Below, piece after piece: positions 18,835-29,302 of a stretch of DNA of 39,888 nt. Position 1 is the stretch's first letter. Every line of letters begins with the position of its first letter. The DNA is taken from positions 1 through 39,888 of the forward strand of contig JAFAKX010000254.1 of the NCBI GenBank assembly GCA_019234945.1, read 5' to 3'. Under the pieces are notes generated by a model. It was not told the origin of the DNA. It saw only the letters and a list, made by a program, of their open reading frames with translations, and made no database searches. The position numbers and the translations under genes are program-made. The DNA is from Silvibacterium sp. Lineage in GTDB: Bacteria > Acidobacteriota > Terriglobia > Terriglobales > Acidobacteriaceae.

Positions 18835-18899
18835 CTGAATTTAACTCTTTAGGAATCTGTTAAATAGGCGAAAGCAGCAACGACGGGGGAGGGGGTACC
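18835..18899 (-). repeat. C-rich 3' element downstream of larB (weakest of three copies)
   Basis: Read along the larB sense strand, the stop codon overlaps GGTACCCCCTCCCCC (complement of 18885-18899) and is followed by a TTTAACAG...AAAGAGTTAAA segment. The same order (C-rich block, GTTA block, AGGAGTTA block) follows the KdpD-like gene and tsaE. The second half is only loosely conserved in this copy. Confidence 0.45.
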
Positions 18900-19657
18900 T
18901 ACCCTCTTTGCCCTGACCGGACAATCATCGCCGCCACGTACGCCGCTCCGAAGCCGTTATCGATGTTCACCACCGACACGTTCGGCGAGCATGAGTTCAG
19001 CATGCCCAGCAGCGCCGCAATCCCTCCGAAAGCCGCTCCATATCCGACGCTGGTCGGCACCGCAATCACCGGAGCGGCAACGAGTCCGCCGACGACACTC
19101 GGGAGGGCTCCTTCCATGCCGGCGCAGACGATCACCGCCCGCGCGCGCCCTAGCCGGTCGCCCTGGGCAAGAAGCCGATGCAGCCCGGCCACCCCGACGT
19201 CGACGATCCGCTCGACCTCGAGCCCGAGATACTCGCCCGTGACTGCTGCCTCTTCGGCCACCGGCAGGTCGCTGGTGCCCGCGCAGACCACGGCCACCGG
19301 ACCAAGCCGCGGCGAGGCTCCGGTCTGCCGAAGTCCGATAATCCTGCCCTCAAAGTGGTATCGCGCCTCGGGGAGCAGTTCCCGCACGGCGTCAAATGCC
19401 TCCAGACTGGCCCGGGTGGCGATCACGTCACCCCCGGCTGCCGCCATGCGCGAGAAAATCTCCGCCACCTGCGCTGGAGTCTTCCCCGCCGCGTAAATCA
19501 CCTCCGGCAGTCCGAGCCTGAGGCTGCGGTGATGGTCGATCTTGGCGAACCCCGTGTCTTCGTAGGGCAGCCGCGACAGGTTCCCAAGCGCTTCCTCGGG
19601 CGAGGTCTCGCCGCGCTGGATCCGTTCGAGCAGTTCGAGAATGGCTTCGCGGGTCAT
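18899..19657 (-). CDS. larB: LarB, NaAD carboxylase/hydrolase of nickel-pincer nucleotide synthesis
   Basis: 252 residues. LarB carboxylates the pyridinium of nicotinic acid adenine dinucleotide and releases AMP to give the dicarboxylated mononucleotide, the first step to the NPN cofactor. It has the PurE-like C-terminal core, with GPVAVVCAGTSDLPVAEEAA, VIVCAGMEGALPSVVGGLVA (family-conserved glutamate) and LLGMLNSCSPNVSVVNIDNG, which contains the cysteine reported to form a transient adduct with the substrate. Its length and N-terminal helical region (LLERIQRGETSPEEAL) match the family. The start overlaps the larC stop by four bases. Confidence 0.96.
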   Translation of the reverse strand: MTREAILELLERIQRGETSPEEALGNLSRLPYEDTGFAKIDHHRSLRLGLPEVIYAAGKTPAQVAEIFSRMAAAGGDVIATRASLEAFDAVRELLPEARYHFEGRIIGLRQTGASPRLGPVAVVCAGTSDLPVAEEAAVTGEYLGLEVERIVDVGVAGLHRLLAQGDRLGRARAVIVCAGMEGALPSVVGGLVAAPVIAVPTSVGYGAAFGGIAALLGMLNSCSPNVSVVNIDNGFGAAYVAAMIVRSGQRG

Positions 19658-20958
19658 GCCTTGACGGTGCTCTCAGCAAAGGCGACCAGGGCTGCCTCCA
19701 TCACCTGCTTCAGCGGGACGCCGTGCTCGCGTGCCGCCCTCCGGCAATCCTCATACTCGGGCATCGCGTTACGCCGCTCGCCGCCGCTGCTGCCGACCTT
19801 CACCCTGATCCGCCCGTAATTGGTCTCGACAGTGACGAGGCTGCGGTCGAGGATCACCCGCTCTTCCGTCCTCCGCCGGATGCCCAGCGTCGTGGTCTCT
19901 CGGAAGAGCAGCTCCTCGATTACCGCAGCATTCTCCGGCTTCGTGAGCACCGTAAGCAGGGTCCCGAGACGCCCCTTCTTCATGGTCACGGGCACTGCCA
20001 TCGTATCCAGCGCGCCGTTCTCCAGGGCCAGTTCCATGGCGTGTGCGACCACTTGCGGATTGGCGTCGTCCACCGCGCACTCCAGCACAGTCACGCGGTC
20101 CGACTTCCCTGCTTCGGCCCCAGGCCTTCCAGACTCGACGCTCTCCCCGATGGTCAACCGGAGCACGTTGGGGAATCCCTCCGGATTCGCGGTTCCCGCC
20201 CCATATCCGATCGCACGCGCGGCAATCACCGGAGCCTTCCCGAAGCTGCACTCCAGGGCGCGCAGCAGCGCTGCCCCGGTCGGAGTCGTCAGCTCGCGCT
20301 TCGGCCCCGTCGAGTATGTCGGGACACCCTTCAGCAGCTCCGCCGTCGCCGGCGCCGGCACCGGAAACTGCCCGTGCGCGCAGTGGACATGCCCGGCCCC
20401 CACGTTCACCGCCGACGCATACCACCGCTCCACGTTGAGCGAGGATAGTCCAACGGCGCAGCATACGATGTCCGTGATCGTGTCCACATTGCCTACCTCG
20501 TGGAAGTGCACGTCCTCCGGGGGCACCCCATGGATCTTCCCCTCCGCCTGCGCCAGCAGCTCAAAGGCGCGCAGGGCCAGAGCCTGCGCCTCCTCCGGCA
20601 ACGCGGTGTGCGAGATCAGCTCGCGAATCTGCTTCCAGCTTCGGCCATGCGAATGCGCGTGCTCGTGGCCGTGGTCATGCGAATGTTCGTCGCCATGATG
20701 GTGATGGCCGTGGGAATGCGCATGGTCGTGGTGGTGGTGATGACCAGCCGATTCGGCGGGCTGGCCATCCACCTCTACATGCGCTTTGGCGGAGCGAATG
20801 CCGCTGCGGTCAACGCGCTCCAGCCTGAGTTCGGCACCGATATTCAGTGATCGCGCCGTTTGTTCCAGAAGATCGGCCGGTATGCCTGCATCGATGAGTG
20901 CTCCTAGGAGCATGTCTCCGCTGATGCCGGCAAAGCATTCCAAGTATCCGATACGCAT
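19654..20958 (-). CDS. larC: LarC, nickel-insertion cyclometallase of NPN synthesis
   Basis: 434 residues. LarC is a CTP-dependent cyclometallase that places nickel into the thiolated pyridinium nucleotide. Family signatures are the N-terminal YLECFAGISGDMLLGALIDAG, DVHFHEVGNVDTITDIVC and TTPTGAALLRAL. A His-rich loop (about residues 75-110, repeated H-H-H, H-S-H-D-H units) is a plausible nickel store. The protein is encoded in one uninterrupted frame; in Lactobacillus plantarum larC is split and needs a programmed frameshift. The ATG is six bases after the larE stop with only a weak ribosome site, which suggests coupling. Confidence 0.97.
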   Translation of the reverse strand: MRIGYLECFAGISGDMLLGALIDAGIPADLLEQTARSLNIGAELRLERVDRSGIRSAKAHVEVDGQPAESAGHHHHHDHAHSHGHHHHGDEHSHDHGHEHAHSHGRSWKQIRELISHTALPEEAQALALRAFELLAQAEGKIHGVPPEDVHFHEVGNVDTITDIVCCAVGLSSLNVERWYASAVNVGAGHVHCAHGQFPVPAPATAELLKGVPTYSTGPKRELTTPTGAALLRALECSFGKAPVIAARAIGYGAGTANPEGFPNVLRLTIGESVESGRPGAEAGKSDRVTVLECAVDDANPQVVAHAMELALENGALDTMAVPVTMKKGRLGTLLTVLTKPENAAVIEELLFRETTTLGIRRRTEERVILDRSLVTVETNYGRIRVKVGSSGGERRNAMPEYEDCRRAAREHGVPLKQVMEAALVAFAESTVKA

Positions 20959-20964
20959 AAGCTT

Positions 20965-21819
20965 TTATTCTTGGGAAGATTGAGTCAGCACTTCAACAGG
21001 CAGAATTTCGTTCATTGAGCCGGAGCGGTATCCGTCACAGTCGAGCGCGACATAATGGAAGCCGGCAGCGCGTACTGCGGCGGACATGCTGCGCAGCCGC
21101 CCGGCATCGAGCGCCAATGGCATTTCGTCCTCCGCGATCTCGATGCGCGCCACAGCTCCGTGATGCCGCACCCGGAAATTCCTCAGCCCCAGGCCGCGCA
21201 GCGCCTCCTCGGCGTCTTCCACCATCCGCAGCGCCTCTGGCGTGACCCTGCGCCCATACTCGATGCGCGACGAGAGACACGCCGACGCGGGCTTGTCCCA
21301 CACATTCAGTCCTGCCGCCTTGGCCAGTGCCCGGACATCGGCCTTCGTGAGCCCGGCTTCAGCCAGCGGCGCCGCAATATGGTGAGCAACCGCGGCGCGT
21401 TGTCCCGGCCGGAAGTCTTTGCGGTCATCTGCGTTCAGCCCATAGGCGACTGCATCGAAGCCGAGCTGTGACCTTTCCTGTTCGAGCACGGTGAATAGCT
21501 CGTCTTTGCAGTGGAAGCAGCGATTCGCGTCATTCTTGGCGTAGGCGTCGTGGTCCAGTTCCGATGTCTGCACAGTGCGCAGCGGAATCCTCTGCTGCGC
21601 CGCGAACTCCACCGCATCGCGGTAATGACTGCGGGCAAGTGAGGCAGAATCGGCGATCATCGCGAGCATCTGGTCGCCCAGAATTCGATGCGCCGCAAAA
21701 GCCAGGTACGCCGAGTCGATACCGCCCGAATAGGCAACGATGACGCTTCCAAGGCCACGAAGAGAAGCGTCGAGCCGATCCTTCTTATCTTCGAGCACCG
21801 TAATTTGCAGATCCGCCAT
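20965..21819 (-). CDS. larE: LarE, sulfur transferase of NPN synthesis (three-cysteine type)
   Basis: 284 residues from ATG at 21817-21819 (a GTG three codons upstream is possible). LarE adenylates the substrate carboxylates and inserts sulfur. The PP-loop is VIVAYSGGIDSAYLAF. The sulfur-donor cysteine is in DKPASACLSSRIEYGRR, matching the sacrificial Cys176 region of L. plantarum LarE. A second pair, C-F-H-C in NRCFHCKDELF, makes three cysteines. Three-cysteine LarE proteins have been reported to hold a [4Fe-4S] cluster and work catalytically. It is first in the larE-larC-larB operon. No larA-like racemase is in the window. Confidence 0.95.
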   Translation of the reverse strand: MADLQITVLEDKKDRLDASLRGLGSVIVAYSGGIDSAYLAFAAHRILGDQMLAMIADSASLARSHYRDAVEFAAQQRIPLRTVQTSELDHDAYAKNDANRCFHCKDELFTVLEQERSQLGFDAVAYGLNADDRKDFRPGQRAAVAHHIAAPLAEAGLTKADVRALAKAAGLNVWDKPASACLSSRIEYGRRVTPEALRMVEDAEEALRGLGLRNFRVRHHGAVARIEIAEDEMPLALDAGRLRSMSAAVRAAGFHYVALDCDGYRSGSMNEILPVEVLTQSSQE

Positions 21820-21947
21820 CCCAATCACTGCCTGTTTGATGATCGTAACTCCTCAGGCGTCGCGGCGGCGAATCATGGCATGACGTTGGCCCTGATTAGC
21901 ACGAAAAAGCTAAGTTAATAAATGAGCGAGAACAAATAGGATCGAAG

Positions 21948-23141
21948 ATGGCCGTGTTCGAACTGCGATCGCCGTTAACGCCGGAAGAGCGACTATACAA
22001 ACGCAAGCTAATCTTCCGCGATGTGATCGCTCTCGTCAGCCTCTTCGTCATTACGGTAGCCCTGGCAGTCCTGACGTATTTGCTGTTCAACTCGTTCCTG
22101 CGGCGCAGGCAGGCGCTGACGCAAACCTGGCTCCTGGAGGGCGAAAAAGCCATGGCGACTGGCCGACCCAAGGAGGCTGTCGATGCCTATCGATCCGCCC
22201 TGGAATATGGCCCGCTGCAGCGTGAAACAGAAGCCAAGCTTGCAATGGCGCTCTCCGCAGCGGGCCACCAGCAGGAAGCGGTGTCCTACTTCGACACGCT
22301 GCTCGAGTCGGAGCCCGGCAACGGACAGATTAACCTCGCCCTGGCGCGAATCGCCACGAAACAGGGCAATGAATCGAGAGCTATCGAATACTACCAGCGG
22401 GCCCTCGACGGTACCTGGGAGGGCGACGGCTATGCGCGGCGTCGCACAGTGCGGCTGGAACTCGCCCGCTACTTCATCGGCGTCGTCGATTACCCACGCG
22501 CGCGGACCCAGTTGCTCATCGTGGCCGGTAATGCACCGGACGATCCTGACATCAGGATGGAAATCGCAGGCCTGATGGAAAAGGCGCAGGCCCCCTCTGA
22601 CGCGCTCGAAATCTACCGCAGTATCGCGGAACAAAAACCTGACAGGATCGACGCGCTGGAAGGCGCCGGACGCGTAGCGTTGGCGCTGGGGCGATTCGGC
22701 CTGGCGCGCGCATATCTCGAAGAAGCGGTGAGGCATGCTGGCTTTGCATCCCAGCCCGATCCGGTCCAGTCGCAGTACCGTGAAATGCTCGCGGACGCGA
22801 CGCAACTGCTCGACCTCTACCCGGGAACCGATCTGAAAGTAGGAGAACGCGCCCAGCGCATCCTTCATGCAGCAACGGTCGCGCAGACTCGCCTCAACGT
22901 CTGTTTGGCAAATGGCAAAGTGAGCGACCCACAGGTTGCTGGTCTCGCCGCGAAATGGCAACAGGTCCCTACGAAATTAACGCCGACAGATCTTGCTCGA
23001 CAACCTCAGCTCGAGCAATCGATCATGGCCCTGGTTTACACGACTGAACTCGAAACCGAGCGGGCCTGCGGCCCCCCGAACGGCGAGGATCTCCTGTATT
23101 TGAAGATTGCGAAATCACCACTGGTGGCGGAACAACAGTGA
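21948..23141 (+). CDS. Membrane-anchored TPR-repeat protein
   Basis: 397 residues; ATG after AGGA. A short cytoplasmic N terminus, one membrane helix (VIALVSLFVITVALAVLTYLLF, about residues 26-47), then tandem TPR-like helix pairs (EGEKAMATGRPKEAVDAYRS, AKLAMALSAAGHQQEAVSYF, LALARIATKQGNESRAIEYY, AGRVALALGRFGLARAYLEE). TPR arrays act as protein-interaction scaffolds, here on one face of the inner membrane. Its stop overlaps the GTG of the ClC gene (GTGA), so the two are translationally coupled. It is divergent from the lar operon. Confidence 0.9.
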   Translation: MAVFELRSPLTPEERLYKRKLIFRDVIALVSLFVITVALAVLTYLLFNSFLRRRQALTQTWLLEGEKAMATGRPKEAVDAYRSALEYGPLQRETEAKLAMALSAAGHQQEAVSYFDTLLESEPGNGQINLALARIATKQGNESRAIEYYQRALDGTWEGDGYARRRTVRLELARYFIGVVDYPRARTQLLIVAGNAPDDPDIRMEIAGLMEKAQAPSDALEIYRSIAEQKPDRIDALEGAGRVALALGRFGLARAYLEEAVRHAGFASQPDPVQSQYREMLADATQLLDLYPGTDLKVGERAQRILHAATVAQTRLNVCLANGKVSDPQVAGLAAKWQQVPTKLTPTDLARQPQLEQSIMALVYTTELETERACGPPNGEDLLYLKIAKSPLVAEQQ

Positions 23142-24874
23142 GCACAGAAACTGCAGAGAAACCCCGGGCCACCGCGGCAGCCGCAGCCGTCCCCGACCTG
23201 AACAAGATCGCGCCCACACGCGAGGAGCGGCTGTTTCTCGTCCTCTCCATCTTCATTGGCGTCATCTCCGGACTGCTCGTTGTCTCGTTCCGCATCGCCA
23301 TCGAGTGGATCAGGTTGCTGACTCTCGGACCGGCGCCGCACGCGGGACAGTACCGGCTGTTGCTCGCTCCTGCCGGGGCTGGCCTCATCGTCGCCGTCCT
23401 GATGTGGTGGCTTTTTCCGGGGGCCAGCGGCAGCGGCGTCAATCAGACCAAAGCGGCGCTGTACATCTATAACGGCTTCATCTCCTTCAGAACGGTCATT
23501 GGCAAGTTCATCACCTCGGCCATCGCTATCGGTGCGGGGCATTCGCTCGGCCCCGAAGACCCTTCGTTGCAGATCGGCGCCGGCGTAGCCTCGATGATCG
23601 CGCGCAAGCTGCACCTCTCGCGCGAAAGCCTTCGCCTGTTTGCCCCCATTGGCGCCGCTGCCGGCCTTGCGGCGGCATTCAACGCCCCTGTCTCGGCGAT
23701 TCTCTTCGTTATCGAGGAAGTCATCGGGCGCTGGAGCGCCGCCGTCCTCGGTTCCGTTGTGCTTTCGGCAATTTCAAGCGTGGTGGTAGCGCGATGGTTC
23801 TGGGGGTCGGAACCGCTCTTCCGCATTCCACCGGTTACGCTGCGCGATCCCCGCGAACTGACGGCGTACGCTGTACTCGGCGTCTGCGGCGGCCTCTTAG
23901 CGCTGGTCTTCTCGAAATCTCTCGGCTATCTGCGCCCACGTCTGCGCACGCAGTCACATTGGAATCGCTTCTTCCAGCCGTCGGTCGCCGGCTTGATTGT
24001 CGGAGCAATCGGCTACTTCGGCTTTCCGCAGGTCATGGGACCCGGCTATGCCGTCATGGACCAGGCCATGCACGGCCAGTTCGCCTGGAAGATCCTGGTC
24101 GCTCTCGCTGTGCTCAAACTGCTTGCGACGACGCTCTCGTTTTCGAGCGGCACGCCGGGTGGTATGTTCGCGCCCACCTTGTTCATCGGCGCCATGCTGG
24201 GGGCAGCGGTCGGCACCTTCGAGAAACACTACTTCCCCCTGCTCACGGGAACCGTCGGTTCCTACGCGCTGGCCGGCATGGGGGTGCTGTTCGCAGCTTT
24301 TTTGCGCGCGCCACTGACCTCTGTCTTCATGGTGCTCGAGGTGAGCGGTAATTACTCCATCGTCGTGCCGGTGATTCTGGCGAATACCGTGGCTTATCTA
24401 TTAGCGCGAAGCCTGCAGCCGGTAGCGATCTTCGAGGTTTTCACTCAGCAAGACGGCCTCGAACTGCCTTCGATGGAAGAGCAGCGCGAGGAGCGAGTCC
24501 TCCATATTGAGGATGCGCTCCGGCCGCCCGACGTGCCCGTCGTAAGCGGGGTCGATTCGATCGGGGCTGCCTCTGACCTCATAGCCAAAACGAACTCGCC
24601 GGCGTTTCTCATACGGCTTCCCGGCGGATCGTGGTATGCGATGCGGCAGGACGAACTGACCAGCACTGCCGCGACCCTGACCGGCGATACTCCGATCGAA
24701 CGGGCTCTCAATTCCGACCGCACTCCGCTCCTCTTCCCCGATCTGCCTCTGGACAGCACGCTGTCATACTTTGCGCGCTGGCCGGTTTTGCCTGTCCTGA
24801 ACCGGGCTAACAAGAACAACCTGGAGGGTGTAATAACCTTGGAAGACGTACTCCATCGCTACCAGGAGTTCTGA
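23138..24874 (+). CDS. ClC-family chloride channel or Cl-/H+ antiporter with C-terminal CBS-like region
   Basis: 578 residues from GTG. The ClC pore motifs are visible: GSGVNQTK (first chloride-site loop), HSLGPEDPSLQIGAG with the gating glutamate in the G-x-E-x-P motif, FVIEEVIGRW with the inner (proton-path) glutamate, GTPGGMFAPTLFIG, and EVSGNYSIVVP with the central tyrosine. Both glutamates suggest H+-coupled exchange rather than a passive channel. Residues about 450-578 form a CBS-type tail (PVVSGVDSIGAASDLIAKT, RWPVLPVLNRANKNNLEGVITLEDVLHRYQ), which usually senses adenine nucleotides. Followed by the kinase gene 76 bases downstream. Confidence 0.95.
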   Translation: MSTETAEKPRATAAAAAVPDLNKIAPTREERLFLVLSIFIGVISGLLVVSFRIAIEWIRLLTLGPAPHAGQYRLLLAPAGAGLIVAVLMWWLFPGASGSGVNQTKAALYIYNGFISFRTVIGKFITSAIAIGAGHSLGPEDPSLQIGAGVASMIARKLHLSRESLRLFAPIGAAAGLAAAFNAPVSAILFVIEEVIGRWSAAVLGSVVLSAISSVVVARWFWGSEPLFRIPPVTLRDPRELTAYAVLGVCGGLLALVFSKSLGYLRPRLRTQSHWNRFFQPSVAGLIVGAIGYFGFPQVMGPGYAVMDQAMHGQFAWKILVALAVLKLLATTLSFSSGTPGGMFAPTLFIGAMLGAAVGTFEKHYFPLLTGTVGSYALAGMGVLFAAFLRAPLTSVFMVLEVSGNYSIVVPVILANTVAYLLARSLQPVAIFEVFTQQDGLELPSMEEQREERVLHIEDALRPPDVPVVSGVDSIGAASDLIAKTNSPAFLIRLPGGSWYAMRQDELTSTAATLTGDTPIERALNSDRTPLLFPDLPLDSTLSYFARWPVLPVLNRANKNNLEGVITLEDVLHRYQEF

Positions 24875-24885
24875 CCGGCAAAAAA

Positions 24886-24912
24886 TTGAAAGTCGACTAC
24901 AACATCTATAAG
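24886..24912 (+). promoter_or_regulatory. Weak candidate internal promoter before the kinase gene
   Basis: TTGAAA (24886-24891) and TATAAG (24907-24912) with a 15-bp spacer, shorter than ideal, in the 76-base gap between the ClC gene and the kinase gene. It could let the kinase and KdpD-like pair be expressed apart from the ClC. Confidence 0.25.
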
Positions 24913-24950
24913 GACGGTGCGCACCGGGACTTGCGCTTGCTGCTGCCACC

Positions 24951-26735
24951 ATGCTGACTCTCTACCAAAGACTCATTCTGGGTTGCTGTCTGCTGATCGC
25001 GCTGGTCACCGGGGTGAGTCTGCTGGTGCGGACCTCGTTCGTCCAGCTTGCTGCCCTCGACGCGTCGCGCCACAAAGCCGGTGAAGCGTTGGCCGCGGTG
25101 GCTGCTGCCAGGGCCTCCATGGCGACAGAAGAGCTGACCGCGGCCAGGCTGTCGACCGGAACAGCACAATCGCGGCAGTTCGAAACCCAGGCGGCCCAGA
25201 CACAAACGCTGCTGACGGAGGCCGGCTCGCGACTCAGCAGCTTCGACGCCAGTGTCTCGATCGACGACCTGCGGGCCCGGCACGAAAGGCTTCTGAAGCA
25301 CAACGTCTCGCCCGAGAGGCTCGCTCCGGAGCTCGAAGGCATCAGCTCCGACCTGACCTCCCGCTTCGACGCGCTCAAGCTTCGCCACGACTCGGTCGTG
25401 TCAGATGCGGAGCAACGGCAGGCGCGGCTTCGAGCTCGCCTCATCAGTGCTTGTGGAGCAAGCATTGCTGCAGCCATTCTCATTGCCGCAGTCATGACAA
25501 GCTTTGTCGTGATCCCCGTTCGCAGCACCGCCCGCGCAGCCAGGCGCATCGGCCAGGGTGACCTGCAGCAGCGCATCGAATGGAGACAGAGAGACGATCT
25601 CGGCACCATCGCCACAGAGCTCAACAGAATGGTCGTCCGCCTGCGCGATCTGCGCGAAACAGAGTCTGGCCGCCTCCAGATGGAGCATCAGCTCAGCGAC
25701 GCAGTGGTGCAGTCGATCTTCGAGCCCGTCATCGTGACCGATGCCAAGGGTCACGTGCTGAAGCTGAACCAGGCTGCTATGGAATTGCTGGGCGACAGAT
25801 CAGACCGCATGGTCCTGGCCAATACTCCCGGCGGAGAAAAAATTCTCGGCGCCATACGAACGGTCGTTTCCATGCAGCGCGCCTCAACCGGCGAGGCCGC
25901 ATTGCTGCCCATGCGCATCGGGAACGCGGAGCGCAGTTACCGCCTGCGTACCACTCCCATGCGCGACGGCGGCGGCAAATTGCTGGGAGCCGTCACGGTC
26001 CTCGAAGACGTGACCGAACTGCAGGAAGTCGATCGCTTCAAGACGCGCTTCCTGTCCGTGGCTTCGCAAAAGCTGCGCGATCCGCTCCAACGGTTGCGCC
26101 TGTCGATTTATGCGCTTGTCAAAGGCCATGCCGGCGAGCTCAGCATACTTCAGCGCGAACTGCTCAGCGGCGCTGAGCAGGAGGCTGAGCAGCTCGACGA
26201 TTTGATGGCAGATCTCATCGAGGTGGGCGAGCTTGAGACCGGCCGCCGCGAGATGAAATTCGAGCGGCTTCGCCCCGCCGACATTCTCCGCGATGCCATC
26301 TCCCGTCACGAAGAGCAGGCACGGTCGAAAAAAATCGAAATGCAGCTCAAGGCATTCGCCGATATGGCTCATGTTCAAGCCGATCGGCGGGCGATGCGCA
26401 GCATTCTGGATAATCTGCTCGAGAACGCGCTGCGCTATACGCCCGAAAACGGCATCATCAGTCTTGAAGCAACAGAAATCAAGGACGGCGTCCAGTTTTT
26501 CGTGCGCGACAACGGCCGCGGTATCGAAGCCGAGCGGCTGCCCGCAATCTTCGGGCGATTTTCCACAGGATCGGATCAGGGAACAGGCCTTGGACTGGCT
26601 CTCGTGCGTCGTCTCGTCGAATCGCTCGGAGGCCAGATCTCCGTTGAGAGCAAGCTCGGAAGTGGCACCACTTTCAGCTTTACGCTGCCATTCGCAACCG
26701 TCACCGCCACACGCCATCCTGTCGAGGTGGGCTGA
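24951..26735 (+). CDS. Membrane histidine-kinase homologue lacking the phospho-acceptor histidine
   Basis: 594 residues: helix 1 (residues about 8-26), a coiled periplasmic sensor region (30-160), helix 2 (about 163-187), HAMP (RSTARAARRIGQGDLQQRIE), PAS (about 245-360, VVQSIFEPVIVTDAKGHVLK), a HisKA-like dimerisation region and HATPase_c. The H-box reads FLSVASQKLRDPLQRLRL: Gln373 (CAA at 26067-26069) stands where His is expected in S-H-E-L-R-x-P. The ATP-site boxes are intact: NLLENALRYTPENG, DNGRGIEAERLPAIFGRFST and GTGLGLALVRRLV. So it probably binds ATP but cannot autophosphorylate in the usual way. Only three bases separate it from the KdpD-like gene. Confidence 0.93.
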   Translation: MLTLYQRLILGCCLLIALVTGVSLLVRTSFVQLAALDASRHKAGEALAAVAAARASMATEELTAARLSTGTAQSRQFETQAAQTQTLLTEAGSRLSSFDASVSIDDLRARHERLLKHNVSPERLAPELEGISSDLTSRFDALKLRHDSVVSDAEQRQARLRARLISACGASIAAAILIAAVMTSFVVIPVRSTARAARRIGQGDLQQRIEWRQRDDLGTIATELNRMVVRLRDLRETESGRLQMEHQLSDAVVQSIFEPVIVTDAKGHVLKLNQAAMELLGDRSDRMVLANTPGGEKILGAIRTVVSMQRASTGEAALLPMRIGNAERSYRLRTTPMRDGGGKLLGAVTVLEDVTELQEVDRFKTRFLSVASQKLRDPLQRLRLSIYALVKGHAGELSILQRELLSGAEQEAEQLDDLMADLIEVGELETGRREMKFERLRPADILRDAISRHEEQARSKKIEMQLKAFADMAHVQADRRAMRSILDNLLENALRYTPENGIISLEATEIKDGVQFFVRDNGRGIEAERLPAIFGRFSTGSDQGTGLGLALVRRLVESLGGQISVESKLGSGTTFSFTLPFATVTATRHPVEVG

Positions 26736-26738
26736 AAG

Positions 26739-27860
26739 ATGAGTTCCATGCTCGAGTTCGAACCGCCTGCCGAGCCGGCAAAGCTGCGCGTCTATATCGG
26801 CGCCGCTCCCGGTGTCGGCAAGACCTTCCGCATGCTGGAGCAGGCCCACCAGCTGAAGAAGCAGGGCGTCGATGTGGTCATCGGCCTGGTGGAACCCCAC
26901 GGTCGCGCCGAAACCGCCGGGCTCGTCAAAGGCCTCGAAGTCATCCCCGAGAAGGAGATCGAATACCGCAACGTGAAGCTGCGCGAGATGGATCTGGATG
27001 CGATCCTCGCCCGCAAGCCGGACACCTGCATCGTCGATGAACTGGCGCACACCAACGTTCCTGGCTCACGCAATCGCAAACGTTACCAGGACGTGCTCGA
27101 ATTGCTCGGCGCCGGCATCAACGTCATGACGGCAGTCAACATCCAGCATCTCGAGACGCTGAATGACGCCGTTTCCCGCTCGGCAAGCACGCAGATCCGC
27201 GAGACCGTTCCGGACAGCTTTCTCAAACGCGCCGACGAAGTCGTCAACGTCGATGTGACCGTCGACGAGCTGCGCACACGGCTGCGTGAAGGAAAGATCT
27301 ATGCCCCCGAGAAGGTCGAGCAGGCGCTCGCCAACTTCTTCCGCAAGGGAAACCTGAATATGCTTCGCGAGCTCGCGCTGCGAACGACAGCCGAACAGGT
27401 CGGCACCGCCGCCGCGGAGTACCGGCGCAATCAGGGACTGGAGCAGGCCCCCATCCCGGAAAAAGTTATGGTGTGCCTCTCATCGCGTCCCGGCACGGAG
27501 CGGCTGTTGCGCGCCGGCGCCCGTATCGCCGGAAGGCTCGCAACAAACTGGTACGCGGTCTACGTCCAGACTCCTGATGAAGATCACCGCCATGGCGATC
27601 CCGAAGCCTATGCGCGCCTCGAAGAATACGAGCACATGGCTCGCGACCTCGGAGCCAAAGTGGTCAATCTAACTGGCAAGAATGTCTCCGACACGCTGAT
27701 TGATTTCGCGCGGCAGGAAAATATCTCACACGTCGTCTTCGGACAATCGGCCCGCTCACGCTTCGACATTCTTCTGCGCGGATCGGTGATCAACCGCTTT
27801 CTCGCCGAGATGCGCGAAACCACTGTCCAGGTGGTTCCGCTGAGCAAAGAGAAGAAGTAA
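26739..27860 (+). CDS. Stand-alone KdpD N-terminal sensor domain with USP domain
   Basis: 373 residues; GAGGTGG lies before the ATG, inside the end of the preceding gene. The first 220 residues are the KdpD cytoplasmic domain: Walker A GAAPGVGKTFRMLEQAHQ, then VIGLVEPHGRAETAGLVKGL, Walker B PDTCIVDELAHTNVPGSRN, RYQDVLELLGAGINVMTAVN and VVNVDVTVDELRTRL. Residues about 235-370 are a universal-stress-protein fold (KVMVCLSSRPGTERLLRAGA, HVVFGQSARSRFDILLRGSV). The four KdpD membrane helices and kinase core are absent. KdpD normally senses K+ limitation or turgor and controls kdpFABC; truncated KdpD forms are known in cyanobacteria. No kdpFABC or kdpE is in the window. Confidence 0.94.
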   Translation: MSSMLEFEPPAEPAKLRVYIGAAPGVGKTFRMLEQAHQLKKQGVDVVIGLVEPHGRAETAGLVKGLEVIPEKEIEYRNVKLREMDLDAILARKPDTCIVDELAHTNVPGSRNRKRYQDVLELLGAGINVMTAVNIQHLETLNDAVSRSASTQIRETVPDSFLKRADEVVNVDVTVDELRTRLREGKIYAPEKVEQALANFFRKGNLNMLRELALRTTAEQVGTAAAEYRRNQGLEQAPIPEKVMVCLSSRPGTERLLRAGARIAGRLATNWYAVYVQTPDEDHRHGDPEAYARLEEYEHMARDLGAKVVNLTGKNVSDTLIDFARQENISHVVFGQSARSRFDILLRGSVINRFLAEMRETTVQVVPLSKEKK

Positions 27861-28078: not shown

Positions 28079-28113
28079 AAAAACACGAGACCCGAGCGGC
28101 TATGCTCGGGTCT
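28079..28113 (-). terminator. Intrinsic terminator, close to bidirectional
   Basis: Stem AGACCCGAGC/GCTCGGGTCT (28088-28097 and 28104-28113), ten pairs with a six-base loop. Read leftward it is followed after four bases by TTTTT (28083-28079); read rightward by TTCTCTTT. A promoter-like core on the minus strand begins only 20 bases away. Confidence 0.75.
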
Positions 28114-28132
28114 TCTCTTTACTCCTAATTCC

Positions 28133-28231: not shown

Positions 28232-28233
28232 GC

Positions 28234-28355
28234 CTTTACGTCCCCATTTTTAGTGTAGCGGGTTTGGGGAAATTGTCGGCCGGGAAAGGCAACGGGTCTG
28301 GGAACAGGGAACTATCCCACACAAGCCAAAATCCGGCTTGTGTGGGGCACCCGGC
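28234..28355 (-). repeat. 122-bp repeat, copy A
   Basis: Matches copy B (29181-29302) over the full 122 bp with only about seven mismatches and no gaps. It contains a promoter-like core on the minus strand (CCGACA 28279-28274, 16-bp spacer, TACACT 28257-28252) and a perfect 12-pair hairpin CCCACACAAGCC/GGCTTGTGTGGG (28316-28327 and 28335-28346). Confidence 0.9.
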
Positions 28356-28542: not shown

Positions 28543-29178
28543 TCAGCCGACTACCCATTTTTCATCTGGCAGGAACAGTAGATCGGTCAGCCTCTCCAGC
28601 ATCACACCTTCCTCATTAGGCTCATAGTTCTCATCGAACCCAACCTTGGCCAGTCTATCCGTGAAATAGTCTCGCAGCAGTTCCGCCTCGTGGCGGTTCA
28701 GAGTGAGCGTTTCCTGATCGATACGACACTCCAAACGACTGGGAAGCAAGTCTTTAAATGAGCTGTCTTCCGACATCAACTTCGAGAGATATTCCGCGTC
28801 CTTAGCGGACGCGCGCATGCGCTCGGTCCCCAGCCAGTCGGTGGCGGAAAGCGTAAAAATGGAGGCGGAGCCGTTCAAGGTAGCGGTGCTGAAATGCCGG
28901 CCGTTGACCCAGATTTCCTGCGGTCCGAAGGTTGTCCCGATCTGGTGGGCGGCGATGGAGCCGTCGAAATTGTAAAGGAAATAAGTCGGGGTCTGGCCTG
29001 AGACCTGCTTTGACAATCGCAGCCCATCGGCGCCATAACCGTTTACGACAGTGCCGTACAGCGCGGTGGCGATGCGGCCCTCAGCATCGTAGGTGTACTT
29101 ATGGATTCCATTCGAAGGACAAACGCCATCGTCCAGAAGATTCCCCGCCGCATCGTAGCAATAACCGTCGATTACTAT
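28543..29178 (-). pseudogene. RHS/YD-repeat protein remnant joined to an immunity-like tail
   Basis: The frame is open from about 29178 to 28543 but has no upstream start. It begins in mid-repeat (GYCYDAAGNLLDDG, HKYTYDAEGRIATAL, GYGADGLRLSKQVSG), continues through RHS-type FLYNFDGSIAAHQIG and ends the repeat at ATDWLGTERMRAS, where the hypervariable tip should begin. It then switches to a different, helical acidic sequence (from about residue 71 of the ATG at 29016), including RHEAELLRDYFTDRLAKVGF and EEGVMLERLTDLLF. That tail could be read as its own 77-residue protein from ATG at 28776. The toxin tip itself is absent. Both ends abut the 122-bp repeats or hairpins. Confidence 0.75.
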
Positions 29179-29180
29179 CC

Positions 29181-29302
29181 CTTTACGTCCCTATTTTTAG
29201 TGTAGCGGATTTGGGGAAATTCTCGGCCAGGAAAGGCAATGGGTCCGGGAACAGGGAACTATCCCACACAAGCCAAAATCCGGCTTGTGTGGGGCACCCG
29301 GC
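29181..29302 (-). repeat. 122-bp repeat, copy B
   Basis: Same orientation and length as copy A, 947 bp away. The minus-strand core is CCGAGA then TACACT with a 16-bp spacer, and the hairpin arms are at 29263-29274 and 29282-29293. The core points into the RHS remnant, whose reading frame begins within three bases of the repeat end. Confidence 0.9.

Follow-up and report, generated by a model that had tools for sequence, protein, structure and literature searches.

A putative pseudo-histidine kinase paired with a free-standing KdpD N-terminal domain in Silvibacterium and its relatives

Contig JAFAKX010000254.1 of a Silvibacterium sp. draft genome (assembly GCA_019234945.1), analysed here over a stretch of 39,888 nucleotides (the window), carries two adjacent genes, one for a histidine-kinase homologue, which we call HK′, and one for a stand-alone KdpD N-terminal domain followed by a USP domain, which we call KdpD-N. 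HK′ (24951..26735, forward strand) has glutamine, not histidine, at the phosphoacceptor position (Gln373, within ASQKLRDPL; its codon CAA, checked, lies at 26067..26069 of the forward strand). KdpD-N (26739..27860, forward strand; PF02702, 315 bits; Usp, 39 bits) begins after a gap of three bases. The two genes are a conserved unit and, to judge by its residues, HK′ is a true pseudokinase. With somewhat better than even confidence we propose that the pair is an arm of Kdp pump control that has been relocated, in which HK′ would gate or anchor the KdpD-N serine kinase without phosphotransfer.

The pair and the kdp genes

How regularly do the two genes occur together? A scan of named genomes found 126 relatives of HK′, the best 80 of which make up our named loci. 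Their genes were called as six-frame open reading frames (ORFs) and by BLAST to the proteins of the window and of the kdp contig described below, so that starts are approximate. KdpD-N lies directly behind HK′ in 79 of the 80, most commonly after a gap of three bases; in the lone exception the contig stops 325 bases past HK′. Such an arrangement is not chance. The named loci include those of Silvibacterium bohemicum S15, Paracidobacterium acidisoli, Acidipila rosea and Occallatibacter savannae, genera which we take to be members of the Acidobacteria (Acidobacteriota); the titles of the others say Acidobacteria, Acidobacteriota, Acidobacteriales or Acidobacteriaceae.

PF02702 matches occur in 58 of 81 genomes, counting the Silvibacterium genome, and KdpA in 52. 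Two kinds of KdpD-N can be told apart. The first, located within kdp loci, mostly shares 38–46% identity with the window protein. The second, that of the window, is 74–93% identical within the family and lies behind HK′ (at L063 this HK′ is truncated by the contig start). The labels were given by BLAST identity, with a cut at 58% and elsewhere at 56 and 72%; in 399 genomes of the class the gap is evident, 26 genomes standing at 64% or above and the next at 48%. An HK′ orthologue (E ≤ 1e-50) was present in all three control genomes of the KdpD-N clade, one of them truncated by a contig end, and in none of 35 others (nine genomes of the family lacking KdpD-N, 20 with the other kind and six from other families).

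Where, then, are the genes of the pump? The first-pass annotation of the window had kdpFABC and kdpE as absent, which is true of the window only. The draft genome, 3.5 Mb long and 72% complete, has the window as its contig C129; its contig C27 carries kdpA, kdpB, kdpC, a KdpE-like regulator of OmpR type, and a divergent kinase (DUF4118-HisKA-HATPase) that keeps its histidine and that we call KdpDC. No KdpD-N was found at the kdp locus of C27, and the window KdpD-N is the sole PF02702 match found in the genome. The halves of KdpD thus sit at separate places in this organism, and the annotation was right that the sensor half is a protein of its own. It had also taken HK′ for the membrane and kinase half of a split KdpD. 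That reading was rejected: HK′ has HAMP and PAS domains and no DUF4118 in Pfam, it falls in a separate clade, and the real KdpDC is the kinase on C27. The alignment of HK′ with E. coli KdpD is confined to the generic kinase core.

The same separation is seen in relatives. In 14 genomes with the window kind of KdpD-N we fetched 15 kdp regions, none of which contains KdpD-N; KdpDC and a regulator stand beside the kdp genes in 12 of the 14, and the other two regions stop at contig edges. Where the pair and the kdp genes share a contig, they are about 2.0 Mb apart (G002) or 0.58 Mb apart (G025). Pair and pump nevertheless occur together. KdpA is present in 25 of the 26 class genomes with the window kind of KdpD-N (the exception is G027), and in 25 of these 26 that protein is the sole KdpD-N at E ≤ 1e-20. 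At the same threshold, KdpD-N and KdpA occur together in 259 of the 399 class genomes, KdpD-N alone in 12, KdpA alone in 11 and neither in 117; the 12 and the 11, compared by eye, agree with these totals. G004, which lacks KdpA, was considered as a case of co-loss and rejected, since KdpC and part of KdpB are present and an assembly gap is more likely. In G257 neither KdpD-N, KdpA, KdpC nor HK′ was found, and co-loss is possible.

Relatives beyond the class suggest where the pair came from. In 396 genomes of the phylum a close KdpD-N (E ≤ 1e-110) was found in 36. Thirty of these genomes are outside the class; kdpA, kdpB or kdpC is in the region at 29 of their 31 loci, some with HK′ between the pump genes and KdpD-N; it is on this ground that we read the window as holding a relocated Kdp arm. 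The order kdpA-kdpB-kdpC-HK′-KdpDN-KdpDC-KdpE was found at L212 (family f23) and at L185 and L073 (f10, within the class), and kdpABC-HK′-KdpDN at L216 (f23). In f34 (L213–L215), kdpABC-KdpDN is followed by a kinase 37–39% identical to HK′ that reads ASHELRTPL, and then by receiver-domain proteins. The relative in f83 (L222, 6787–8619), a kinase of the kdp locus adjacent to KdpD-N, reads AAQALQEPL, and its second glycine box is altered; it stands apart from HK′ in the tree, though with a weak node support of 63, which suggests that the histidine may have been lost more than once.

In a kinase tree of 32 sequences and 229 columns, the HK′ clade (f1, the family of the window, with f23 and f10) has support of 99, as has the whole kdp-linked clade, and both stand apart from KdpDC. 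When six genomes from beyond the family were compared with HK′, a kdp-locus gene matched best in each (E from 2e-72 to 2e-126; G775 has two such copies), the next kinase lying at 8e-32 to 1e-33 or being unlisted at E ≤ 1e-30. Two of the BLAST matches, G775:C14 and G695, contain a TGA; there we used the ORFs, which are open over 644 and 610 residues. In the KdpD-N tree the f1 clade has support of 96 and the whole clade 85. This tree holds 95 of 179 sequences: 26 of 88 from f1, all 36 others, and 25 of 41 and 8 of 14 from two further groups, drawn at random; L114 and L132, although of f1, were placed by the identity cut among the 36. We infer that the pair derives from the kdp locus, from which it would have moved away in f1.

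Could HK′ nevertheless serve the transcription of the kdp genes? Pseudo-histidine kinases are known to act with partner kinases or regulators, and HK′ might form a heterodimer with KdpDC or dock KdpE, KdpD-N being then a cytoplasmic ligand and not a kinase of KdpB. The dimerization and phosphotransfer domain (DHp) of HK′ is conserved, the pseudokinase DivL (4q20) ranks 14 among the PDB matches of its structure model, and candidate partners, KdpDC with a KdpE-like regulator, exist in 12 of the 14 genomes just mentioned. A laboratory-evolved pseudokinase variant of ChrS is reported to heterodimerize with HrrS (PMC9491836). On the other hand, the HK′ of f1 stays with KdpD-N while KdpDC and KdpE remain at kdp, and HK′ and KdpDC fall in separate clades. 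We consider this alternative unlikely, if the best placed of those weighed here.

Residues of HK′ and of KdpD-N

HK′ is laid out as a transmembrane (TM) segment, an extracytoplasmic helical module, a second TM segment, HAMP, PAS, DHp and the ATP-binding CA domain. Pfam reports HAMP, PAS, HATPase_c (101 bits) and HisKA, the last at 25.8 bits, slightly under its cut-off of 26.9. What has become of the phosphoacceptor in the relatives? We compared 93 distinct sequences of f1 and f10 whose identity to the window protein is 36% or more (114 loci less 21 duplicates); the relatives in f23, f34 and f83 were counted apart. None of the 93 has the acceptor histidine. The position holds Arg in 54, Gln in 26, Glu in four, Lys in three, Asp and Gly in two each, and Leu and Ser in one each. 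Directly behind it, where kinases have an acidic residue, 91 of the 93 have Lys. The HK′ sequences of f23 have Ser and Asn at the acceptor position. All 35 other kinases in the initial set of loci keep the histidine. The ATP site is a different matter: N488, N492, D520, G522, G524 and G548 are invariant in the 93 sequences, G546 is found in 91 and G544 in 89. HK′ thus has the N, G1 and G2 boxes of a sensor histidine kinase and lacks its phosphoacceptor, and the first-pass annotation's description of it as a pseudokinase stands.

So largely intact an ATP site might point to an enzyme still at work, either by using some other acceptor or by acting as a GHKL-fold ATPase or serine kinase. We think this improbable. 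The acceptor position varies freely and is followed almost always by Lys, so there is no conserved replacement acceptor at that place.

The structure model of HK′ (mean pLDDT 73, pTM 0.37) shows a long helical module, a PAS domain, two DHp helices and a CA fold in an arrangement that is uncertain; besides DivL, its PDB matches include WalK and ZraS. In 56 of the 80 named loci HK′ is short, at most 560 residues (one of these is truncated by the contig start). Three short examples, when aligned, have lost most of the extracytoplasmic module; the signal therefore probably enters at differing levels across lineages.

We turn to KdpD-N, whose counterpart in E. coli is able to shut the potassium pump down. 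Residues 1–230 of E. coli KdpD phosphorylate S162 of KdpB, an activity reported to require the Walker A motif, the W39/R190 pair, D109 and E110 (PMC11018627). Mapped onto E. coli KdpD, the window protein has K28, T29, F30, D100, E101 and R181. All of these save F30 are present in 88 of 88 sequences of f1, and position 30 (W39 in E. coli) is aromatic in every one (Tyr 74, Phe 12, Trp 2). Walker A, the Walker B Asp-Glu, the adenine-binding Arg and the aromatic residue after GKT, the residues that mark this serine kinase domain (ASK), are therefore all in place. The KdpB of the same genome equals the E. coli sequence over DESAITGESAPVIR, the stretch around S162, and TGES is found in all 73 near full-length KdpB sequences of the fetched loci. 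KdpD-N looks like an active serine kinase. The PDB matches of KdpD-N with its USP domain include 2R8R and 7JI4.

Variants of KdpD-N occur in the loci surveyed. A divergent copy was seen at 14 loci in families f1 (one genome), f2, f3, f5 and f6; in 13 (L052, L071, L072, L074, L076, L077, L078, L079, L080, L084, L085, L087 and L090) it stands in tandem beside an intact copy, and at L082 it is single in its region. All 14 have Ser for the Thr after the Walker A Lys, and the Walker B Glu is Gly in 13 and Ala in one (in a second mapping, Gly in 12, Ala in one and a gap in one). These copies look like a dead serine kinase beside a live one. At L217 and L228 a KdpD-N of the window clade lies inside a KdpD-like ORF of about 900 residues; fusion or fission has thus happened within the KdpD-N clade.

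Might c-di-AMP be the input? Going by the motif definitions given in PMC4686210, the motif in the USP domain is of E. coli type (R258-X3-R262-X8-W271-X-A-V-Y), and the S. aureus c-di-AMP motif SXS-X20-FTAXY was not found in it. A DAC-domain cyclase was found in none of the 23 f1 genomes with the window kind of KdpD-N (the Silvibacterium genome, 72% complete, among them), in eight of the 20 family genomes with the other kind and in all 11 genomes outside the family with the window kind, in a comparison uncorrected for relatedness. With neither the motif nor the cyclase found, c-di-AMP was set aside as the input to the window KdpD-N, a result that does not single out HK′.

These observations are consistent with the following scheme. 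When K+ is plentiful, the free-standing KdpD-N with its USP domain would phosphorylate the TGES serine of KdpB and the pump would stop, transcription being handled by the separate KdpDC–KdpE pair at the kdp locus. HK′ would derive from an ordinary HAMP-PAS histidine kinase of that locus, having lost the acceptor histidine and the acidic residue behind it and retained the ATP site. It would most likely work by an ATP-dependent change of shape, binding KdpD-N at the membrane and switching or anchoring it. The first-pass annotation had KdpD-N acting by binding and not by phospho-relay; for the pair this is probably so. We hold more tentatively, as a possibility less likely than not, that HK′ has become an allosteric receptor for a serine kinase, free of phosphotransfer: a signal from the membrane or from outside the cytoplasm would be sensed by HK′, whose ATP-bound core would switch the action of KdpD-N on KdpB, giving a K+ brake that operates without c-di-AMP or the TM/GAF sensor of classical KdpD.

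Several points weigh against the proposal of a relocated regulatory arm under the control of HK′. Gene adjacency is no proof that HK′ and KdpD-N are in contact. G027 (99% complete) and G008 (90%) possess the pair, and neither KdpA nor KdpC was found in them. Only six of the 31 KdpD-N loci outside the class have a kinase homologue of the HK′ kind in the region, and three of these six keep the histidine; KdpD-N can thus work without HK′. In G140 (f9, 9% contamination) the HK′-like ORF behind kdpC ends after 326 residues, before the kinase core, and KdpD-N is found on a different contig, preceded by an unrelated gene. Loss of c-di-AMP alone does not explain HK′, since the 12 of 20 genomes with the other kind of KdpD-N in which DAC was not found also lack HK′. 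Finally, the ratios of nonsynonymous to synonymous substitution rates (dN/dS) of HK′ against three relatives, 0.05–0.06 for HAMP-PAS, 0.05–0.15 for DHp, 0.05–0.10 for CA and 0.13–0.27 for the N-terminal module, are low, which in DHp and CA counts for the proposal, but dS is near saturation (1.1–1.8).

The chloride transporter and other neighbours

Upstream of HK′, on the same strand, lie two further genes, so that the first-pass annotation's cluster of four co-oriented genes is borne out in its coordinates and domains. The first encodes a membrane protein with TPR repeats (21948..23141, forward strand; TPR_16, 71.6 bits) and one N-terminal TM segment recognized by reading the sequence. It overlaps by four bases the gene of a ClC-family protein (23138..24874, forward strand; PF00654, Voltage_CLC, 301 bits), which ends 76 bases before HK′. 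Aligned to solved ClcA structures, the ClC keeps both glutamates, LGPEDP standing against LGREGP and FVIEE against FIIEE; these we take to be the external and internal glutamates of ClcA. It is probably a Cl−/H+ exchanger. Pfam gave no CBS domain in it at E ≤ 0.001, so that the CBS tail of the annotation falls away.

Do KdpD-N and HK′ control this transporter? A turgor- or ion-sensing module rewired to chloride/proton exchange was what the annotation proposed, and it asked whether ClC stands beside KdpD-N in other genomes. It does in some. Besides the four same-strand genes of the window, a ClC gene precedes HK′ by no more than 2.5 kb in 22 of the 80 named loci (immediately in 16, with one intervening gene in six), and in the same genus it is linked in six of seven other genomes with KdpD-N. 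But no ClC was found on the same strand within 2.5 kb upstream in the other 58 loci, 52 of which extend 2 kb or more upstream, and the order is lineage-bound. In G001, of the same genus, ClC is missing and unrelated genes stand next upstream of HK′. In other families the pair lies at kdp without ClC. The annotation had named two findings that would count against it, an unconserved gene order and a kdpFABC–kdpE set nearby that uses these proteins, and each was found in part only: the order holds within lineages, and a kdpABC–kdpE set lies elsewhere in the genome. On the linkage in 22 of 80 loci and the presence of the pair at kdp in other families, we dropped chloride rewiring as the principal reading and regard control of ClC by KdpD-N and HK′ as very unlikely.

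The gene directly upstream of HK′ is more often another one. In 46 of the 80 loci it encodes, on the same strand, a membrane protein of another family; there is none in 28, it lies on the opposite strand in one, and five have too little sequence. DUF6798 was reported at the Pfam cut-off for two of five such proteins scanned, below it for two, and not reported for one. This protein, of about 500 residues and weakly DUF6798-like (L140, 6619–9719; L105, 8393–9910; L059, 5709–7196), may be a functional partner. The TPR gene accompanies ClC in 19 of the 80 loci and goes with ClC, not with the HK′–KdpD-N pair as such; LarE occurs in 18, of which 16 are linked to ClC. ClC and the TPR protein are lineage-specific neighbours, perhaps co-expressed with the pair. 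As to why the pair lies near ClC, we can conjecture that K+ uptake and Cl−/H+ exchange are both needed in acid soils.

That HK′ is a decaying, functionless gene hitchhiking with its neighbours is scarcely credible: the catalytic histidine is lost, also in the f83 relative with its altered second glycine box, and the ORF in G140 is shortened, but dN/dS is well under 1 in every domain and the frame is open over at least 462 residues in each of the 80 named loci, a set gathered by searching with HK′.

The remaining features of the window lie to either side. LarB-LarC-LarE, genes for the nickel-pincer cofactor (18899..21828, reverse strand), are divergent from the TPR gene and outside the system. 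Downstream, a terminator-like hairpin of 12 pairs (28087..28114, forward strand), seen by consensus scan only, lies 227 bases past the KdpD-N stop. A REP-like direct repeat of 123 bases, 95% identical (28233–28355 and 29180–29302), contains a 31-base near-palindrome. An ORF at 28543–29016 of the reverse strand, its translation read by eye, resembles the end of an RHS/YD-repeat protein and is probably a remnant.

Comparison with known systems

Split KdpD in Acidobacteriota and pseudo-histidine kinases are both already in print; what appears to be new is the tie between a KdpD serine kinase domain and a conserved, seemingly dead histidine kinase. An open-licence literature search, outside which most subscription papers fall, returned no description of a pseudo-histidine kinase paired with KdpD-N, nor of a ClC–KdpD-N cluster, in the texts available. 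HK′ is a concrete candidate for the partner that controls free-standing KdpD serine kinases where the c-di-AMP signal is absent. The loci form a natural series, from the kdp loci of f34 with the histidine, through those of f10 and f23 with the dead kinase, to the relocated pairs of f1. They are also a natural case in which the chemistry of a histidine kinase has been lost, and its ATP site kept, in association with a kinase of a different type.

The closest known system is the short KdpD of Deinococcus geothermalis (DgKdpD), described as a serine kinase driven by c-di-AMP (Silberberg et al. 2024, PMC11018627). According to the same source, split KdpD chains (ASK and HK) are most common in Acidobacteriota and Chloroflexota; the string ‘pseudo’ occurs nowhere in its main text. 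As in DgKdpD and the split ASK chains described there, the Silvibacterium genome has a free-standing KdpD-N with USP, Walker A, the Walker B Asp/Glu and the adenine Arg, and a separate chain for the TM/GAF histidine kinase. Unlike them, the window KdpD-N is located apart from kdp and has a third protein, HK′, as its neighbour; in none of the 23 f1 genomes with it was a DAC domain found. The match of the window protein to NCBIfam NF038185 (residues 14–366) reaches 413.6 bits, below the cut-off of 550; the name of that family, ‘KdpD-like non-kinase potassium sensor’, does not fit DgKdpD, for which serine kinase activity was shown. Annotators should be cautious on both counts, for HK′ would not be a histidine kinase, nor KdpD-N a ‘non-kinase’.

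D. radiodurans, too, has kdpD-N as a gene distinct from those of the sensor-kinase half and of the response regulator (PMC5716572). There, however, all of them lie in one kdp cluster, and the available part of that account describes no second, dead kinase. DivL of Caulobacter, which has PAS domains and is reported to be without kinase and phosphatase activities (PMC4211667), resembles HK′ in that the histidine-kinase fold is reused as a sensory module. The two differ in what they are tied to: DivL, as described there, reads the response regulator DivK~P, whereas HK′ is genetically tied to the serine kinase domain of KdpD.

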